Both the position numbers and the translations under genes were made by a program. Shown piece by piece: positions 1,801 to 10,004 of a DNA stretch of 10,042 nt. Numbering within the stretch: position 1 is the first letter of the stretch; the number at the start of each line of letters is the position of its first letter. Location of the stretch: positions 1 to 10,042 of the forward strand of contig JALLAZ010002534.1 of assembly GCA_036939755.1 (NCBI GenBank), read 5' to 3'. Source of the DNA: Stephanodiscus triporus (lineage: Eukaryota; Bacillariophyta; Thalassiosirophyceae; Thalassiosirales; Thalassiosiraceae). Under the pieces are notes generated by a model that had not been told where the DNA came from, ran no database searches, and worked only from the letters and a program-made list of their open reading frames with translations.

Positions 1801-2626
1801 CTTGGCATGATGTAGATAGCTTGGTACAGTGTGATCTGCAATCATACGGAAGCTTCTTTCAGCACGCTTCATCGTCCAAACCAATGATCGCCAATGTGGA
1901 TCAGGTAGATGATCCATATATGGTGGATGATTTAGAACACACTTGGAGTTCCTGGAGACCTGAGGACCAACACAGGCATAACGAACCACCTTTCTATAAT
2001 CAGTGAAAACCCTCTTTGCATCACCTCTGCTCAAAGCTCTATGTCGTAGATTTTCGCAAGCCGTTAGAGATTTGGAAATTTTCAACAAACAACATTCATC
2101 AAGAATGCCTAAAGACATCCTTTGAGGCATTCTAATAAAGGGATGCACACCGTCAATCATGGGATGGGTTAAGCCAATATTTGGATCAGTTTCATCTTCA
2201 ATGTGTACTTTGTTGACAGAAATAGAACGCCACAATACACCATCTGGTGGTTTAATCCGTGGGGTTGAATGATTGCCACCATCAAAAACAATTATATCAG
2301 AGTCAATCTCGATGGGAGACAAATTGAATTGATTACTAGGAATGATGACTTCTCGGCAGATCTCTTTAATCTTCCTTTGCTTTTACTTGGCTCTATGAGA
2401 TCTCCGGTGAAAGACTTTTGATGATTTAACGTGCTTCTGATATGCTGCAGAAGCACACTGAGTACGCAGCGATGAGGTTGCATTTGATTTGGAGAAAACA
2501 TGAACCCATGATGGGTTAAGGTCGTTAAGTTCAAGAGGTGCTACAGTTGAGGATGATTCAATGTCACCATAAAACTCACAAGTGTCAGTAATGTGGCAGC
2601 TGAAGGCATATGAGACAGTACTAGAC

Positions 2627-2718
2627 TGAGTCAAGGCGTTGCAGTGAACACTATCACTACTGACATCAAGAGANTGAGTCAAGGCGTTGCAGTGAACACT
2701 ATCACTACTGACATCAAG
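2627..2718. repeat. 44 bp direct repeat flanking an N (probable assembly join)
   Basis: Positions 2627-2670 and 2675-2718 are identical and are separated only by AGA and an undetermined base at 2674. This is what an unmerged contig overlap looks like. The duplication repeats SLDVSSDSVHCNALTQ in the - strand gene. The 48 bp offset keeps the frame, so it does not itself break the gene. Confidence 0.8.
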
Positions 2719-2999: not shown

Positions 3000-3628
3000 G
3001 TTCTTTAGAATTCTCTTTTGCCTTTTCCCCATAATGCTTTCAGTGAAGGTTGGGCCACGGTCCTCTAAAGTAGCGACAGAGGAATGATCCAGGATAACAC
3101 GTGACGGTGTATCTGATTTCACTTCGGGTAAATGAAAAGCTTGAGTCAATGGAGTGATATGTTCCATTGGGTGTACGGATGCGTCCATTTTGATGTATCA
3201 AAGGGATGTCTTGAATGATAGGACCAAAATCGACTCCGTTAAAATCAACGGTAGATACAGATGATATAGACGATTCATCGTCATTGTGTTTGTCTTGGCG
3301 GACAAGGTCAACTTGATTAATGTCACAAAAGCTGACAGTGGAGAGAGAGTACACAGCGTTGTCGTCTTTGTTGTTTCTGTTGTCGTCGTCGTTGTCGTCA
3401 TCGTTGTCTCCGTTACCATCGAATGGAACAAAATATCCTTCGTACACGTCGCCCTTGTTGTCCTCGTTGTCCTCATCTTCGTCTATTTCGTATTCACTTA
3501 GGAGATTACCATCACTGTTGTAGTGAGAGGGATGGTAAACAAACGTGTCTTAGTCGTCGCCTTCTGGATAAGAGTAATCACTTAATATAAGGTGACCTTC
3601 ACTGTCATTGGGAGGATGGGGAAAATAC

Positions 3629-3858
3629 CCGTCTTCGTCGTCTTCATCATCGTCGTCGTCATCATCTTTGTCGTCATCATCGTCGTTGTCATCGTTGTCG
3701 TCGTCATCGTTGTCATCATTGTCGTCGTCGTCGGCAGCGTCTTCGTCGGCATTGTCGTCGTCATCGTCGTCGTCGTCGTCGTCCTCGTCCTCGTCCTCGT
3801 CGTCCTCGTTGTCCTCGTCGTCCTCGTCGTCATCGTCCTCTTCGTCCTCGTCGGCAGC
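3629..3858. repeat. Degenerate trinucleotide repeat coding for an Asp/Glu tract
   Basis: On the + strand this is an imperfect run of TCG/TCA/TCC/TTG triplets. On the - strand it reads as GAY/GAR codons, giving about 75 residues that are nearly all Asp and Glu with a few Asn and Ala. A shorter similar stretch lies at 3363-3418 (the DNDDDNDDDN part of the same protein). Long open frames on the + strand here are only by-products of the repeat. Confidence 0.8.
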
Positions 3859-4009
3859 GTCGTTGGTGTGGCGTCCAGTGCGTCGACGTTTCAACTGCGG
3901 GAGAAGGTCAAGAGAAGTAAATACAGACCACTTGTCGCGTTCTTCGATTTCTCTGCGTCGAACAGTGTTGTCGAATGCTCTCTAAGACAGCATAGGCATG
4001 ATCATTAGG

Positions 4010-4039
4010 ACAAAAGGTTGTTCAACAAAAGGTTGTTCT
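4010..4039. repeat. 15 bp tandem duplication inside the LTR
   Basis: ACAAAAGGTTGTTCA (4010-4024) is followed at once by the same 15 bases with one mismatch in the last position (4025-4039). Each unit can also form a small hairpin. Duplicated LTR blocks often hold regulatory sites; nothing here shows that directly. Confidence 0.6.
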
Positions 4040-4044
4040 TAGCA
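4035..4044 (-). other. LTR segment complementary to the primer-binding position
   Basis: In element sense this reads TGCTAAGAAC. It is the exact reverse complement of the ten bases that follow the 5' LTR (9995-10004 on the + strand). If the transcript starts at or near this point, its 5' end could fold back onto the primer-binding position, as in the yeast element Tf1. The transcript start is not known. Confidence 0.4.
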
Positions 4045-4072
4045 ATTATGGCTATATCGTCTAGGGAAAAAG

Positions 4073-4124
4073 GTCAGAGAAGTCTCTGACTAAACCTGAG
4101 TGCGTTGCCTACGCTAGGCAACGC
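4073..4124. other. Two perfect palindromes at the 3' end of pol
   Basis: At 4073-4090 the arms GTCAGAGA/TCTCTGAC flank a two-base loop and contain the pol stop codon (4074-4076). At 4102-4124 the ten-base arms GCGTTGCCTA/TAGGCAACGC flank a CGC loop. Both would form stable hairpins in the element RNA next to the 3' LTR. They may affect RNA 3' end formation, or may belong to the LTR itself. Confidence 0.55.
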
Positions 4125-7100
4125 TGGAATCCATTTGGATGGTTTGAAGTAACCAGGTAATTGTATTCCAATGGGAGTAGTCGGCTCGGGACTCGCTCTC
4201 TGCTCTCGTGGGACTCTAGGTAAGGGTATGTTACGTACGTACCCGTCCTTGAGAGTTCCAACACACCCTTTCAGAGTGCTAGGCTTGATGGCCCGCGGTA
4301 ATACCAAGGGCGAATTTTTCTCATGGAGGTAAAAAGGGCGTACTGCTGTGTGGTGCGCCCCAGGGTGATGCTTGCTTTGGTAGTCAGCCAAGTTCTCTTG
4401 GCCGGGGTGCCAAACTAGTTGGTATCGATCCTGTGCAACTTTATCAGCAATCCAAAAATATCTCATTTCCATTGCTCGCGATCGTTGTCGTTTGATGGTG
4501 TTGTTTGCAATACCAATGGCAGTTGCATTATCGCAGTGCACGGGGGTTTTGGGTTGTGGATGTCCAAGGTCTTCGAGGGTAAGTCGAAAAATTAGTCCCT
4601 CCTGACAATTTAGAAATAACGCTCCCAATTCTGCTTCCGCGGCTGAAGATACAACAAAACGGAGGATGGAACACAAGGTGTGAAATGCGCCATTCAAACG
4701 AATGGGCGCTCCATCTTTTGGTATCCATCCGAGGAAAAAATGTCCACTCGCACGGCTGCGCGATTTAGGCTCCGTGAGATATGATGCGTCGGAATGGATA
4801 TTCAGAATCATGTCGGATGCGCGGAATCGTACGGTGGCATCAGGGTGCGTCGCAAGATAATCGAGGACCTGCAGTGCCTTCGCCATTGTTCGTTCCGTGC
4901 CCTTTGTTTGCTCACTCGCTATTGTGCTGAGTGACACTAATACTGTCATATCCACTGCCCTTGCATAATAAAGGATGCTCCCCACAATTTTCTGAACACG
5001 TTTTATTTCGTTGTCGTCAAGCTTGCGGGATGTGTCGATGGGGAGAGGTGATTGTGCCTCTGATCCATATTTTTTCGGCTCAGGTGAGTAAGGGCAATGT
5101 TGTGGACGGGGGGACACGACGTGTTTGTATTTGTCCAGTTGTTTCTGAACGTATCCCGGCATGGATATGTCGAGTGTGCGCGCGTGATAATCCCATTTCA
5201 ATTTTATTCCGCAGTACAGGTCGCCCGTCCAGTCCTCGACGAGTTTGTATTCTTCCCCGATGCATTTTACCAGGTGGTCTGCATGTTCTTTGCCGACATA
5301 TTTTACGCCGAAATCGTCGACAACAAGCGAAAATGTGATCGGGCGCCATTCGTGTCGCCAGAGCCCCGGGGTGTTTGCGCATTCGTGGTATCCGTGTGGG
5401 GCAAGGCGCTGTCGGAGGAGTTTGTTGGCAAGTATTCCTGCCTGCGGTAACCCCCACACTGCTCGCTCCAAACGTAAGTGCACAAATCCTTTGTATGCGC
5501 AATTGTCGAGGTCATATTGTTTCCGAATCCATGCAGGGAACAACTCGAGCGGCATTCGCATATACTCGAAATAGTCAAGGGCGGCGGTGAGGTAGAAATT
5601 TTTAATGTCGAGGCACATGAATTTTGCGTCGGGCGTGCTGAGGACACTGTTCCACAGCAACTTCGAGGTGCACAGGTCCGCTGTGCGTGTGGAGACGTTG
5701 CCTTTGTATTGGATTAGATTGCCGCCTGCCGTGATACGGATGCGGTTGGGATCTTCCTTTTGGGGGCGGTGATCGACGACGACCTTGGCGTAAGTGAATT
5801 TTTGCTTGTCCAAATATGCCTTTTTTATCTCGTCGTGTTTCATCACGAACATTGAATTGGTCCCTTTTTGGCCTGTTTTGTTATCGCCCTGCGCCATCCC
5901 ACCAAAATCCTTTCCGAACGCTGTTTGCCAAATCTCCGCCGTCGCGGGATCGTTCATGAGACGTTTGTAACTCGAAATCAATTCTCCATTGACAGGATGT
6001 ACCATCGGGGATGCGTAGTGCGCAAAATTAGGGCGCGTGTCGACAAAGTCAGGCAGGGTCAAATCACGGTGAGTGAATGCGACTTGCTTGTACAATGCCT
6101 CCCGTGTCGTGAGCGCATTCAAAGCTTGCTGACTGATAAGATTCGCGCGCGCCCTGGGAATGCGATGCCCAGGCATAGCCGTGAAGTGTACTTTTGGTAG
6201 GCTGGGGGTCTCGGTTCGTGTACGTGGCGAACGCCGGGGAGCTGCCTCGGGTGTATCATCCTGAGTAACGCCGGGGAGCGTGTCGCGTGTGATTGGCGGC
6301 ACTGCCCCGGGGGTGTTACCGCGCGTGACGCGTCGATGTATCCGGGCCGTAGTGAGTAGACTGCGTTTTGCTGTGGGATTGCGTGCTTGTATGATAGCAG
6401 GGCTGTCAGTCACCCGTTGGATTGTCACAGTTGTTGTCGGTGCAGGCGTAGTCACCCTTTGTTGTGTTTCTGTCACAGGGGGGTCCAAAATTGCGTCAAG
6501 GTGAGTGCGCAGTAACTTGATGAGGGCTTTGCCTTTGGGTGTCATGGCTGCTTCCCGCGCTTCATTTGTTAGTTCTAACGTCAGGGCTTCGATGTGCTCA
6601 TTTGGCGTTAGATTCGGTAATTGGCAATGTTGGGGAAAAAGCTCCGCTGATCCCGAGATACGGTAAGCACGCGTCTCGGGGACGTAATATATATTGCAAC
6701 GGTAATGGTCCTTCGATGGACCTAGCAACCACGCATCTGTTCCGCGCGCCGCCCATGATCCTCGTACGGCCGGGGCTTCATATATTACTGCCTTGCAGCC
6801 TGGGGGTGCAAGAGGATACCGGCCCCAATCGTATGGCCCGTTGAGGGCCTCGTATGCCGAAACTTCGGGGTTGACACGCGACGCCCTGAGCAGGTTCAGC
6901 GTGTCCTGTACTTGTGGGGCCAGTTTGTCCCAGAGTTGCAGTGGGAAATCTGCATCTGTCGTTGCAAGCGTTGCAATGAAAGCATCCTTGAACGTTTGTA
7001 TCGCCCGTTCAGCGGCGTTGACCCGATGGTTGTGTGGCTCAACGAGTTGGAGTTTGCATTCTTTGTCGGTAAGAAATTTTTTGATAAATTTTGTGGCTTG

Positions 7101-8339
7101 ATTGTCCATGACGTTGACTTTCGGCTTGTACCCCTTGGATTCTAACATGTCGAAGTGAGTTTTGTACGCGTTGAAAATACTTTTGTCGTCTAGGCCTGCA
7201 ATTGGCGTTGCCAGAATCGCGTTGGTTTCATAGTGATATAGCACAAAGAAACATACGCTGCCGTCCAATGACATAAATGGGAAGTTGCCGGTCAAATCGT
7301 TGTACACTACGCCCGACACCTTGTCGGCGAATGCCCCAAAACAAAACACGTTGGCAATTGATTGATCAACGTTGGAGTCGTCGTCATCACTGATGACCGT
7401 ACGCAATGCGCCGTACGCTGGGCCTTGGAACGGCGGGGGTTGGTCGAACAGGGGTAGAATGATGGGACCGGGCGGGGGCACGACTGTGACATTCCTGGTG
7501 GGACGTGGTGTCGTGCTACGGATTCCTTTTTTTGGCCTTTTCATGTGACCCTTGGTGGTGGCCGGGCTGGCGTTCAAGTACTTGGTGACAAGTTCGACAC
7601 TCATGTTAGGGCACCCTTTGAGGAACCCCTTTTTCAATGCCTTTAGCAGTGTGGATATTCTGGGATTGCCGAGTGACTGATGGGCAAATTTGACGGCGTT
7701 CGCACGTGTTCGGATCGAGTGTGTGAACGCCGCCACCGAGACATGGTTTGGGTTTTTCTGATCACCCTGATCTTTTCCCACCATGTTGTTGATCTGCTTG
7801 TGTATCGCCTCATGGGTGATGGGTAGCGTCCATAGATCGGTCGATAGATCTTTGCGTCCTTGTAAAATAACTTTGTTGTCATATTTTACGTCACATGTTG
7901 CGTCGGTGAACGTCACTTCGCAACCCGCCTTGCATAGTACCCTAATTCCTAGAAGGGATGCCATCGCCAAACCGGGCACGATGTGTCCCGTCAGGATCTT
8001 TGGTAACCCTGGGATGATAATGTCACATACGTGCGTCGAGTTCACAATGCCTCCATTTGGGAGGTTGATACTGAGGGGTGCCTCGGTGGTGCGCACATTA
8101 GTCATGGGTGTGCCTGCCATGACAAAAATGGAGGTCGCACCTGTGTCTGCGATGGAATGTGACGGCGGGACTGTAAATTTTACAGCTTGTGGAATGGCCG
8201 ACGCCGCATGTTGTTCTTTTGGCGACAAGTTGGATGCGGCTACTGTTACATCATCCATCATTTTAATTTTAATGGGGTCCAAAGCATACTGCGTGATTTC
8301 ATTTATTTTATGACAATCTATATGCTCCGCCCCCCACCG
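4074..8339 (-). CDS. pol: Pol polyprotein (protease, integrase, RT, RNase H) read through from Gag
   Basis: Cleaves Gag-Pol, copies element RNA to cDNA and inserts it. The frame is open from the codon after the Gag TGA to TGA 4074-4076. Residues are numbered from the TTG at 8282; the first ATG is residue 8. Aspartic protease: DTGA at 46-49. GAG-pre-integrase region about 195-260, with the usual zinc-binding His/Cys pattern degenerate. Integrase triad D329, D393, E425; the last spacing is 31 residues against the canonical 35. A Pro/Thr-rich linker (about 600-700) has two 12-residue repeats. Reverse transcriptase (RVT_2) about 785-1030 with D892 in FMCLDIKNFYL and VDD at 988-990. RNase H D1165, E1216, D1251, D1300. 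A C-terminal tail of about 80 residues is not recognised. No ATG lies between the Gag stop and residue 8, so expression by readthrough is likelier than a separate start, but is inferred. No premature stop is seen. Confidence 0.9.
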   Translation of the reverse strand, partial: RWGAEHIDCHKINEITQYALDPIKIKMMDDVTVAASNLSPKEQHAASAIPQAVKFTVPPSHSIADTGATSIFVMAGTPMTNVRTTEAPLSINLPNGGIVNSTHVCDIIIPGLPKILTGHIVPGLAMASLLGIRVLCKAGCEVTFTDATCDVKYDNKVILQGRKDLSTDLWTLPITHEAIHKQINNMVGKDQGDQKNPNHVSVAAFTHSIRTRANAVKFAHQSLGNPRISTLLKALKKGFLKGCPNMSVELVTKYLNASPATTKGHMKRPKKGIRSTTPRPTRNVTVVPPPGPIILPLFDQPPPFQGPAYGALRTVISDDDDSNVDQSIANVFCFGAFADKVSGVVYNDLTGNFPFMSLDGSVCFFVLYHYETNAILATPIAGLDDKSIFNAYKTHFDMLESKGYKPKVNVMDNQATKFIKKFLTDKECKLQLVEPHNHRVNAAERAIQTFKDAFIATLATTDADFPLQLWDKLAPQVQDTLNLLRASRVNPEVSAYEALNGPYDWGRYPLAPPGCKAVIYEAPAVRGSWAARGTDAWLLGPSKDHYRCNIYYVPETRAYRISGSAELFPQHCQLPNLTPNEHIEALTLELTNEAREAAMTPKGKALIKLLRTHLDAILDPPVTETQQRVTTPAPTTTVTIQRVTDSPAIIQARNPTAKRSLLTTARIHRRVTRGNTPGAVPPITRDTLPGVTQDDTPEAAPRRSPRTRTETPSLPKVHFTAMPGHRIPRARANLISQQALNALTTREALYKQVAFTHRDLTLPDFVDTRPNFAHYASPMVHPVNGELISSYKRLMNDPATAEIWQTAFGKDFGGMAQGDNKTGQKGTNSMFVMKHDEIKKAYLDKQKFTYAKVVVDHRPQKEDPNRIRITAGGNLIQYKGNVSTRTADLCTSKLLWNSVLSTPDAKFMCLDIKNFYLTAALDYFEYMRMPLELFPAWIRKQYDLDNCAYKGFVHLRLERAVWGLPQAGILANKLLRQRLAPHGYHECANTPGLWRHEWRPITFSLVVDDFGVKYVGKEHADHLVKCIGEEYKLVEDWTGDLYCGIKLKWDYHARTLDISMPGYVQKQLDKYKHVVSPRPQHCPYSPEPKKYGSEAQSPLPIDTSRKLDDNEIKRVQKIVGSILYYARAVDMTVLVSLSTIASEQTKGTERTMAKALQVLDYLATHPDATVRFRASDMILNIHSDASYLTEPKSRSRASGHFFLGWIPKDGAPIRLNGAFHTLCSILRFVVSSAAEAELGALFLNCQEGLIFRLTLEDLGHPQPKTPVHCDNATAIGIANNTIKRQRSRAMEMRYFWIADKVAQDRYQLVWHPGQENLADYQSKHHPGAHHTAVRPFYLHEKNSPLVLPRAIKPSTLKGCVGTLKDGYVRNIPLPRVPREQRASPEPTTPIGIQLPGYFKPSKWIPALPSVGNALRFSQRLL
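6237..6329 (-). repeat. Short internal repeats in the integrase-RT linker
   Basis: Two 12-residue units, VTRGNTPGAVPP (652-663) and ITRDTLPGVTQD (664-675), are followed by a partial third, DTPEAAP. Basic residues just upstream (ARIHRRVTR) could form a nuclear signal. Repeat expansion in a flexible linker is the simplest reading. Confidence 0.4.
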
Positions 8340-8342
8340 TCA
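8274..8342 (-). promoter_or_regulatory. Candidate stop-codon readthrough signal between gag and pol
   Basis: The Gag stop is TGA (8342-8340) followed by CGG, and every codon after it is sense into Pol. UGA-CGG is one of the known leaky contexts in plant RNA viruses. Six nucleotides after the stop a stem can form: GGGG (8333-8330) with CCCC (8277-8274), a GA bulge, then CGGAGCATA (8329-8321) with TATGCTTTG (8288-8280) including two G-U pairs, closing a 32 nt loop. Sequence and pairing are seen; function is inferred. The alternative is a single CGA-to-TGA mutation in a once-continuous frame. Confidence 0.6.
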
Positions 8343-9941
8343 GAAGTTTGGTAGTTGCGTCTTGTGTTTAGCCTTCGAGCAAGGATCGTACCCAGCCTCG
8401 ATATACTGCTGGGCGTTATTGCGATCGTACGCTTCTTGGTGGTTGGCGCGCCTCCACTCTTGGGGACACGTGCGCGACGTGTGGCCGTCCTCAACATCAA
8501 AGCCGCATGAAAAACATGCATTCATGTTGTTGTGCTTTTTGACGATGTTCGAAAACATGGCAGCAGTGTTTCGCGCTGGCGTCACGCCGCCGCCGATCAT
8601 TGTAGGGATGAACGCTGGGATGCCGCCACCCCTGCCGCCGTTGCGTGCAGTGTATTCAGCAAACGGTGTGCGTGGGTTGCGGCGTCCACCTTGATTGGGG
8701 GCGCGCGTCCCACGTCCGCGTCCACCGCCTTGCCTCCCGCCCCGTTGGTTGAAGGGCTGGAACGTGCTCATCGCGGGGATGTTGAAATTATGCACTCCCA
8801 ACATCGGTGGAGTGGCTGCGTTGACGCGTGCTCGGTGAGGGTCTGCGTTGGCGACGCCGTATGCCATCATTTGGGTCATCATGGCTTGTTGATTCGCAGC
8901 CAGTTGCGTGATGGCTGCGTTGACGTTGTTTGTCGCGGCGGCCGCTGATGCCGCTGATAGCTGGCTTTGATTGGTCATCGCTGCCAGTTGCGTGACAATA
9001 GTCGCGACATCGTCATCGTCGTCGTTGTCGGATTGTTCAGCAAGCGCATTGAATGCGTTCTGCACATAGCCATGTTGGCCTGTCGTGTTGGCGGTCGCGT
9101 TGAGGCGACGCTGGAAAGCTGCTTGGATGAACGGCTTTAACTCGAGGTACGTTTTCGTCGCGTCCGCACGTCGGTCCCACTCTTCGAAATCGCGCATGTA
9201 CATGCCGCATCCTAGGAGGAGGCGCACTGCGTTGTTCAGAAGTTGGGTCGCAGTGTAAGGGTCCTCTCCCAGCACTTGTACTTCCTGACAGTTCTCGATG
9301 CGCCGAAATAGGACTTCCGGCGCATCTGCGGGGGAGTATGGGCTGCGAAACAACGTGTCATTTTGCAACAGGGCCGACGCCGTGGGGCGGCCGTATGTCG
9401 ACACCAAAGTGTCGATCATATCAATGATATTCATTGACGGATTCCAGCCTGTTAGCAAGGGGTCGTTCGACACCTTGAACGCGTCGTCAACGTTATCGTC
9501 GAGCATGTTATAACATGCTCGCTTGATGTTCTGGTATGTCCTCCAGTAGTTCTTGGCGCGGTTGTAGCTCGCGTCGATCGTCGCGAGCGTGGCGCGGCTG
9601 AGCACTGGGAGGGGAGGATATTGTAGGTTGCCTCCTGCATCCAGTTCGGGTGCATCTCCTGCTGCATTCATGATGGGTTGTTGGGCTGGATAATACACCG
9701 CTTGAGGTCCAGGATCAAGTGGGAGGATAAACGGAGCTAGGCTCAGTAATGCGTACATGGGGCGTGCCATTACGAATCCAGACCAACCGAGAACGTTGCT
9801 CTGGGGGCAACTTAGGCGCTGAAGGGCGCGTTGCATATGACGACGTAGCTCCCTCAAATTTGCGAAATTTGGGCGTGGAGCGAGCGAGGGGGGGCTTGCG
9901 AGGGCCTCGGCCACCTCGTCGTAGCTGATGAGTGTATCCAT
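8340..9941 (-). CDS. gag: Gag capsid/nucleocapsid protein
   Basis: 533 residues forming the particle that packages element RNA. ATG at 9941-9939 has A at -3 and G at +4 and is the first ATG in the 63 nt leader. The first 300 residues are a mostly helical capsid-like region with no motif I can name precisely (NVLGWSGFVMAR near 49-60). Then come a short acidic run (SDNDDDDD, 304-311), an Ala/Gln/Asn-rich stretch with two similar units (about 316-356), and an Arg/Gly-rich RNA-binding section (399-440). The zinc knuckle is C476-x2-C479-x7-H487-x4-C492, three residues longer between the second Cys and His than the usual retroviral CX2CX4HX4C; this form seems usual in diatom elements, from memory. 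The frame is intact, ends at TGA, and is the same frame as Pol. Confidence 0.87.
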   Translation of the reverse strand: MDTLISYDEVAEALASPPSLAPRPNFANLRELRRHMQRALQRLSCPQSNVLGWSGFVMARPMYALLSLAPFILPLDPGPQAVYYPAQQPIMNAAGDAPELDAGGNLQYPPLPVLSRATLATIDASYNRAKNYWRTYQNIKRACYNMLDDNVDDAFKVSNDPLLTGWNPSMNIIDMIDTLVSTYGRPTASALLQNDTLFRSPYSPADAPEVLFRRIENCQEVQVLGEDPYTATQLLNNAVRLLLGCGMYMRDFEEWDRRADATKTYLELKPFIQAAFQRRLNATANTTGQHGYVQNAFNALAEQSDNDDDDDVATIVTQLAAMTNQSQLSAASAAAATNNVNAAITQLAANQQAMMTQMMAYGVANADPHRARVNAATPPMLGVHNFNIPAMSTFQPFNQRGGRQGGGRGRGTRAPNQGGRRNPRTPFAEYTARNGGRGGGIPAFIPTMIGGGVTPARNTAAMFSNIVKKHNNMNACFSCGFDVEDGHTSRTCPQEWRRANHQEAYDRNNAQQYIEAGYDPCSKAKHKTQLPNF

Positions 9942-10004
9942 CTTGTGTGGGTCGCACGCTCACGTGGGGGCGGACCGTCCTTTCTTATTTGTTATGCTAA
10001 GAAC
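9942..10004 (-). other. 5' leader with unusual primer-binding position
   Basis: Between the 5' LTR edge and the Gag ATG. In element sense it begins GTTCTTAGCATAAC. It does not resemble the complement of the initiator-Met tRNA 3' end (TGGTATCAGAG or similar) used by many copia elements. Its first ten bases are the complement of TGCTAAGAAC inside the LTR, flush with the LTR end. The rest is a purine-rich stretch (AATAAGAAAGGACGG) and a GC-rich run before the ATG. Confidence 0.5.

Follow-up and report, generated by a model that had tools for sequence, protein, structure and literature searches.

LTR elements as a rule prime reverse transcription with a tRNA. The DNA described here raises the question of how a retrotransposon starts this synthesis when the bases that follow its 5' LTR are the complement of a segment of its own LTR. 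The whole stretch analysed, referred to below as the window, is the entire contig C1281 (10,042 bp) of an assembly of 21.65 Mb in 1,324 contigs. Its minus strand carries a Ty1/copia-type retrotransposon which, judged from its sequence and from that of its relatives in the same genome, is very probably self-priming, as fission-yeast Tf1 is.

Coding regions and LTRs of the element in the window

The coding part of the element consists of the following features.

8340..9941, minus strand: gag ORF, with its ATG at 9941-9939 and a UGA stop at 8342-8340
4074..8339, minus strand: pol ORF, with a DTG protease motif, RT (VVDD) and a C-terminal RNase H-like stretch; the ORF ends within the 3' LTR
8271..8342, minus strand: gag/pol junction, a candidate stop-codon readthrough signal made of the in-frame UGA-CGG and a stable predicted stem from the fifth base

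Gag and pol share one frame with the UGA between them. RT carries its VVDD at Pol 1006; the other pol motifs were assigned by eye, and by eye a DDE-like stretch is seen at about Pol 395-470, upstream of RT, with nothing integrase-like after the RNase H-like end. The Ty1/copia RT model of Pfam, RVT_2 (PF07727), matches the RT of the window at E 7e-4, which is under the curated cut-off. With this model, C1044, a relative in the same genome, scores 32.6 bits, above the cut-off of 31.6 bits, and C990 scores 30.6 bits, just under it; all five of the database relatives scanned also match, each below the cut-off. Pfam gave no integrase family at E values up to 5, a search of solved structures gave nothing at E values up to 1, and the domain order PR-IN-RT-RH is a tentative one, read from motifs by eye. 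The arrangement of a Ty3/gypsy-type Pol of the Tf1/sushi group, with integrase after RT and RNase H, was not found, and the RT matches RVT_2.

A protein search returned 2,767 relatives at E<=1e-20 from 7,997 scored candidates. Among the 120 relatives listed, four have names that bear an organism, either CCRYP tags, which we take to denote Cyclotella cryptica, or Cyclotella_meneghiniana, and these are 61-62% identical, so a diatom is the likely host. Searches beyond this genome gave one locus of 22% identity in viral contigs and none in other genome contigs, neither result being informative.

The predicted stem at the gag/pol junction has an MFE of -26.2 kcal/mol (z -3.84). UGA-CGG is a known readthrough context, and the related element on C1168 carries an identical TGACGG at its gag/pol junction. 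The pol ORF extends about 190 nt into the 3' LTR (window 4263-4074, minus strand), so that U3 encodes the Pol C-terminus; in C1168, the 5' LTR is covered by a stretch that matches the last 81 query residues of Pol. Two further observations concern the surroundings of the element. A long acidic, Asp-rich low-complexity ORF (window 3550-3981, minus strand) lies beside its 3' end and overlaps the last LTR bases, and at window 2614-2709 an N lies between two units of 48 bp that are 90% alike, perhaps marking a scaffold join.

The LTRs and the features next to them are as follows.

3969..4263, minus strand: 3' LTR, 295 bp, TGTTGGAA...TTCGACA, from alignment with C1168
10005..10042, minus strand: the 3'-terminal 38 bp of the 5' LTR, up to the contig end, by comparison with the C1168 5' LTR end
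9995..10004, minus strand: putative primer-binding site (PBS) GTTCTTAGCA, flush with the LTR end, from sequence and covariation
4035..4044, minus strand: putative self-primer TGCTAAGAAC in the 3' LTR copy, LTR nt 220-229, from sequence
4046..4050, minus strand: initiator-like CATAA (in CCATAA) just upstream of the primer, a candidate start site
4264..4271, minus strand: polypurine-like tract AAAGGGTG directly before the LTR, read directly from the sequence, with a putative role as such
4009..4038, minus strand: 15-nt tandem duplication (GAACAACCTTTTGTT / GAACAACCTTTTGTC) with its start in the primer site, not shared by C1168, from comparison of the two sequences

The plus strand at 9995-10004 reads TGCTAAGAAC and thus GTTCTTAGCA in element sense, right after the ..TTCGACA of the 5' LTR. 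The first-pass annotation had proposed that the ten bases following the 5' LTR are the exact complement of 4044-4035 and stand flush with the LTR edge, and reading both segments bears out each point. Its estimate of an LTR of about 100 bp does not stand. The 5' LTR of C1168 aligns with the 3' region of the window from TGTTGGAACTC to ..GACA, which sets the 3' LTR at 4263-3969 and the primer segment at nt 220-229; a short LTR beginning at 4044 is ruled out by the same alignment. The sequence AAGGGTG precedes the LTR also in C33, C1306, C990 and C1311.

The contig stops 38 bp into the 5' LTR, so the paired segments of the window belong to different LTRs. Over these 38 bp, the ends of the two LTRs are not identical, with 4 substitutions and a 1-base gap between them. 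In C1168, LTR and leader are contiguous, with 1 mismatch in ten. The 10-mer is present once in the 295-bp LTR and arises in 5 of 20,000 dinucleotide-preserving shuffles of that LTR (chance about 2.5e-4), which agrees with the earlier view that such a match is unlikely by chance.

Covariation of the putative primer and binding site among related elements

Twelve places were read where a 5' LTR-leader junction was expected or found, all in this one genome, and 11 of them have a recognisable LTR edge; C1308 has the gag start and no recognisable LTR upstream. C1168 was found by DNA likeness to the window junction, and C563, C1221 and C137 by likeness of the gag start. The expected distance led to C1306, C876 was part of a locus examined for its RT, and C990 and C250 came from the forecast described below. 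C33 and C483 emerged when the fetched loci were scanned for the LTR-leader complement itself. As the scan picks up chance matches of 9-12 nt at other places too (e.g. 12 nt in L015), it is by itself no proof, and the LTR context decided. The junctions are given below as LTR segment / leader.

C1281 (window): TGCTAAGAAC / GTTCTTAGCA; perfect over 10 nt
C1168: TGCTAAGAAC / GTTCGTAGCA; 9/10, with an uncompensated mismatch at base 5
C563: TAATTAGAAC / GTTCTAATTA; perfect over 10 nt
C1221: ATATCAGAAC / ATTCTGATAT; 9/10, with the first base mispaired
C137: ATACTTAGAAC / GTTCTAAGTAT; perfect over 11 nt
C33: ATAAGTAATCAC / GTGATTACTTAT; perfect over 12 nt
C876: TAGAGAAC / GTTCTCTA; 8 pairs, then a 1-nt bulge and four more pairs
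C483: ATAATCTAGGTA / TACCTAGATTAT; perfect over 12 nt
C1306: AATAATCTAAGTA / TACTTAGATTATT; perfect over 13 nt
C990: ATGATTAATAAC / GTTATTAATCAT; perfect over 12 nt
C250: TTGATAAATATC / GATATTTATCAA; perfect over 13 nt with the next base

Pairing is complete over 10-13 nt, beginning with the first base of the leader, in eight of the 11 junctions; two pair at 9/10 and one has the bulge. The putative binding site thus lies flush with the 5' LTR and is complementary to the element's own LTR, with the LTR edge independently fixed in 4 of the 11 (C1281, C33, C1306 and C990), where the 3' LTR ends at the same base with a different flank. For the other seven, the edge was judged by eye or from similar relatives, in part with knowledge of where the complement lies. 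Identity over RT-RH is 42-87% among the seven junction contigs measured, the window included (C563, C1221, C137 and C1168 left out). The 3' and 5' LTRs of C990 are not identical in the segment: one base separates them, and it is the adjoining 5' LTR that agrees with the leader.

C33, C876 and C483 (L082/L083, L076 and L085) appear as tandem Copia elements that apparently share one LTR, either real arrays or assembly joins, and their leader and measured RT may therefore come from neighbouring copies. A second C876 leader, L110, has the same first 16 bases but one; it was not counted, its LTR being cut before most of the primer segment.

From family to family, the putative primer and PBS change together. 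With rows of 10+10 nt placed at their best match, which leans towards pairing, and with shuffles that ignore relatedness, 97.3% of the 110 base-pair cells pair (0 of 500 shuffles as high) and two-sided changes occupy 38 of the 110, compared with a mean of 9.7 after shuffling (0 of 500 as high). At least one two-sided change is found at 9 of the 10 pair positions (mean 5.9 shuffled, with 6 of 500 reaching 9), further pair types number 19 (mean 13.0 shuffled, 4 of 500), and the covariation score is 0.989 against 0.205 (0 of 500 reach the observed value). When the partner is slid by 1-3 columns, pairing falls to 27-40% and the covariation score to 0.03-0.11. Lack of covariation between the two segments among relatives had been named in the first-pass annotation as grounds for giving up self-priming, and the observed changes go the other way.

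Because of the best-match placement and the kinship-blind shuffling, the leaders were also permuted among the LTRs with a free search of each LTR tail. The true assignment gives 106 matches of 110, whereas 200,000 permutations have a mean of 75.6 and a maximum of 99, none reaching the observed value; with C1168 left out, 97 matches compare with a maximum of 91. For the six junctions not chosen by primer match (C1168, C563, C1221, C137, C876 and C1306), only the true assignment, 1 of 720, reaches the score. Control 10-mers taken 13-29 nt further downstream exceed 8/10 in 0 of 153 cases. Among close relatives, C483 and C1306 (RT-RH 87%) differ at one paired position, with both sides changed, and C990 and C250 (RT-RH 80%) have three paired positions swapped and compensated.

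These results bear directly on the reading of the complement as a chance match or an artefact of repeat assembly. The window by itself offers one 10-mer, the scan of the fetched loci shows that matches of 9-12 nt with the same layout arise by chance, and C33, C876 and C483, in their tandem LTR-sharing arrangements, are possibly mis-joined. Set against this are the rarity of the match in shuffled window LTRs, the permutation of all 11 junctions and the single true ordering of the six; moreover, mis-joining would be expected to mix families, not to create matches within them. We regard chance or artefact as extremely improbable.

The self-priming reading was also put to a forecast. The expected junction and its places were derived from the 3' LTRs of C990 and C105 and written before the search, with C250 marked 'maybe'. 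At no more than one mismatch, the forecast 15-mer has 6 genome matches compared with 2 for the reversed control. C990:4307 and C250:12988 fall within the stated intervals with one mismatch each, and the sole exact match lies elsewhere (C1294). The two forecast junctions as read pair perfectly with their own LTRs, over 12 nt in C990 and 13 nt in C250. At the C105 site no match was present in the interval at up to 1 or 3 mismatches; at three mismatches the 15-mer total of 67 is similar to the 64 of the control. Four more C990-type junction matches, with 0-2 mismatches over 17 nt, were seen at C1294:7191-7207, C1143:11337-11353, C557:7132-7148 and C1010:1298-1314, and are perhaps further copies.

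Start-site motif, leader folding and candidate primers

Upstream of the inferred cut, all 11 junctions have CA followed by TAA, TTAA or ATA, with the A at 15 nt (4/11) or 16 nt (7/11); counting back from the inferred cut after 4035, the A of CATAA in the window (4049) is nt 15. CATAA itself is present in 8 of the 11, and a pyrimidine precedes the motif in 10. The pattern, which was picked after the sequences had been seen, occurs at 28 of the 822 positions in these LTR tails, a figure that includes the true sites. The motif is constant while the paired letters vary between families. We take this CA(T)WA-type motif to resemble an initiator, in which case the RNA would begin at the primer, in line with what the self-priming model requires. 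Pairing begins 3-6 nt past the motif A, so transcription may start slightly downstream, or the first bases of the primer may go uncopied.

When leaders are folded from the presumed initiator A, the primer-PBS helix is predicted in 9 of 10 native leaders, with a mean pair probability of 0.80-1.00. The mismatched C1168 leader does not fold in this way (pair probability 0.11). The C137 leader, 84 nt long and the only one set against shuffles, has a fold with z -4.71.

Candidate tRNA primers were taken from an Rfam tRNA search in which 63 of 561 candidates were scored and 64 matches listed; 50 loci were read to give 60 distinct sequences, an incomplete set that includes organelle-like tRNAs. Within this incomplete set, the best match of a tRNA 3' end is 4-6/10 across the 11 leaders, and the best internal site reaches 7-8/10 in 10 of them. 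The C1168 leader is the exception, matching the anticodon arm of tRNA-Arg(ACG) on C66 at 9/10 and ending in the anticodon stem; apart from this internal match, no PBS complementary to a tRNA 3' end or half was found among the 60. No leader of the 11 starts with TGG. The earlier remark that a tRNA-like primer site is lacking holds for the incomplete set, internal regions included, in that none of its members beats the element's own LTR and ties occur at C1168 (9/10) and C876 (8/10). A pattern search for tRNA-Arg(ACG) gave the C66 gene and one other match, on C39. Half-tRNA priming, prompted by the 9/10 match of C1168, was dropped once the covariation was seen.

Drosophila copia is primed by a tRNA half, and a cellular tRNA or tRNA half might likewise prime at these leaders, with the LTR complement being secondary or accidental. 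The C1168 match ends as a half-tRNA primer would, and the tRNA set, with 63 of 561 candidates scored, is incomplete. We nevertheless hold this to be very improbable. The 3'-end and internal matches are low outside C1168, the leaders do not begin with TGG, and C66 presumably carries organelle- or bacterium-like tRNAs. The leaders change from one family to the next in step with their own LTRs, for which a tRNA does not account.

Tf1-like self-priming of a copia element, as the first-pass annotation had suggested, is supported by the covariation and the forecast, and we consider it highly likely. The anatomy fits, with the primer at the presumed RNA 5' end and a PBS of 10-13 bp flush with the LTR. 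In the scheme that we propose from the sequences, transcription would start in the LTR, at or a few nt after the initiator-like CATAA, and the first 10-13 transcribed nt would fold onto the complement that begins at the first base past the LTR. The RNase H of the element would nick the RNA after the paired stretch (after ..GAAC and before AACC), and the reverse transcriptase would extend the nicked end through U5. Plus-strand synthesis would later copy the primer, so that the binding site would be rewritten each round to match the LTR, and the segments would thus covary though their letters differ between families. That the PBS is recopied from the primer at plus-strand synthesis would follow from general retroviral replication, which makes close covariation a prediction of the model.

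Some junctions count against self-priming. C1221 mispairs at the first base, where the primer 3' end should pair; C1168 has its mismatch and a leader that does not fold; the forecast missed at C105; and C1308 is without a recognisable LTR.

Covariation demonstrates pairing, not priming, and the stem might have another role (packaging, dimerisation, RT loading or that of a GalEa-like hairpin) while something else primes. Fungal GalEa, which is without a PBS and has a conserved hairpin there whose role is unknown, lends weight to this reading (PMC5445492, in extract). We think it improbable for the elements described here. The 3' arm of the stem begins at the first base past the LTR, where the first DNA base must be added, a position that depends on the edges as set (4 of 11 independently fixed, and the first base of C1221 mispaired). 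The 5' arm sits just after the initiator-like motif, the tRNA set offers no alternative primer site, and the GalEa authors report no U5 complement (PMC5445492).

Comparison with known systems and significance

Self-priming of the kind favoured above is best compared with that of Tf1, in which the first 11 RNA bases prime and RNase H cleaves between bases 11 and 12 (PMC7175516, in extract). In Tf1/Tf2 of S. pombe and Tj1 of S. japonicus, as in the window element, a 5' segment of the RNA is complementary to the PBS, and Tj1, also self-primed, likewise has a stop at the gag end. These yeast elements are Ty3/gypsy elements, with Tf1 shown by experiment, whereas the window element has a Ty1/copia-type RT and is known from sequence only. 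The putative primer of the window-type elements is 10-13 nt long and lies 29-66 nt before the LTR end.

Among plant LTR elements analysed, self-priming has been predicted for 12%, including the Ty1/copia TAR lineage (Neumann et al. 2019, PMC6317226, in extract), and earlier proposals for Houba and Osr-1 are cited in the same source. The plant TAR elements (Houba, Osr-1) resemble the window element in being Ty1/copia and in the complement of 10 bp or more, starting 0-5 bp past the 5' LTR, from which their self-priming was predicted. They differ in their plant host, and the extracts of PMC6317226 contain no covariation test or start-site motif for them. Osser, Bryco and Bianca are Ty1/copia elements with half-tRNA primers and so likewise use no complete tRNA (PMC6317226, in extract), but the window-type elements are without a consistent match to a tRNA half. 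Fungal GalEa, another Ty1/copia element, has no tRNA PBS and carries a paired structure where the PBS would be (PMC5445492, in extract). The GalEa site is a palindrome in itself, with no complement reported in U5, whereas the partner in the window element lies in the LTR.

The CoDi elements, like the window element, are diatom Ty1/copia elements with short LTRs (163 bp in Blackbeard), and in most of them gag and pol are separated by at most one stop or frameshift (Maumus 2009, PMC2806351, in extract). Priming terms are absent from the main text of that paper, where the sole 'PBS' is a buffer. A self-primed diatom Ty1/copia element, of which the first-pass annotation knew no description, was not found in the literature searched either (including PMC2806351, PMC8147415 and PMC12477816, with supplements and subscription papers outside the search). 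Since self-priming was already predicted in plant Ty1/copia (TAR, PMC6317226, in extract), what is new here is the lineage and the evidence from covariation rather than self-priming in Ty1/copia itself.

Taken across families, the junctions incline us, by a small margin of confidence, to a broader view, in which self-priming is a general and long-kept mode of a deep and diverse diatom Ty1/copia branch (RT-RH to about 42%). Such elements would be free of host tRNAs and would measure out the primer by a constant distance, from an initiator to a cut 15-16 nt past its A. With the binding site copied anew from the primer in every cycle, the primer sequence could drift without constraint from family to family. 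If true, this drift contrasts with the frozen tRNA-matched sites of other elements.

To our knowledge, there are few examples of self-priming outside the Tf1/sushi group and a plant Ty1/copia lineage. Here it looks usual in a diverse Ty1/copia group of one algal genome, with support from compensatory change at 11 junctions (RT-RH down to 42%) and from a forecast that was right for two of three elements. The scheme yields exact predictions of RNA 5' ends and a covariation filter for the automatic detection of such elements. With its naturally varied primer/site pairs, the group would also help to date the loss or gain of tRNA priming.
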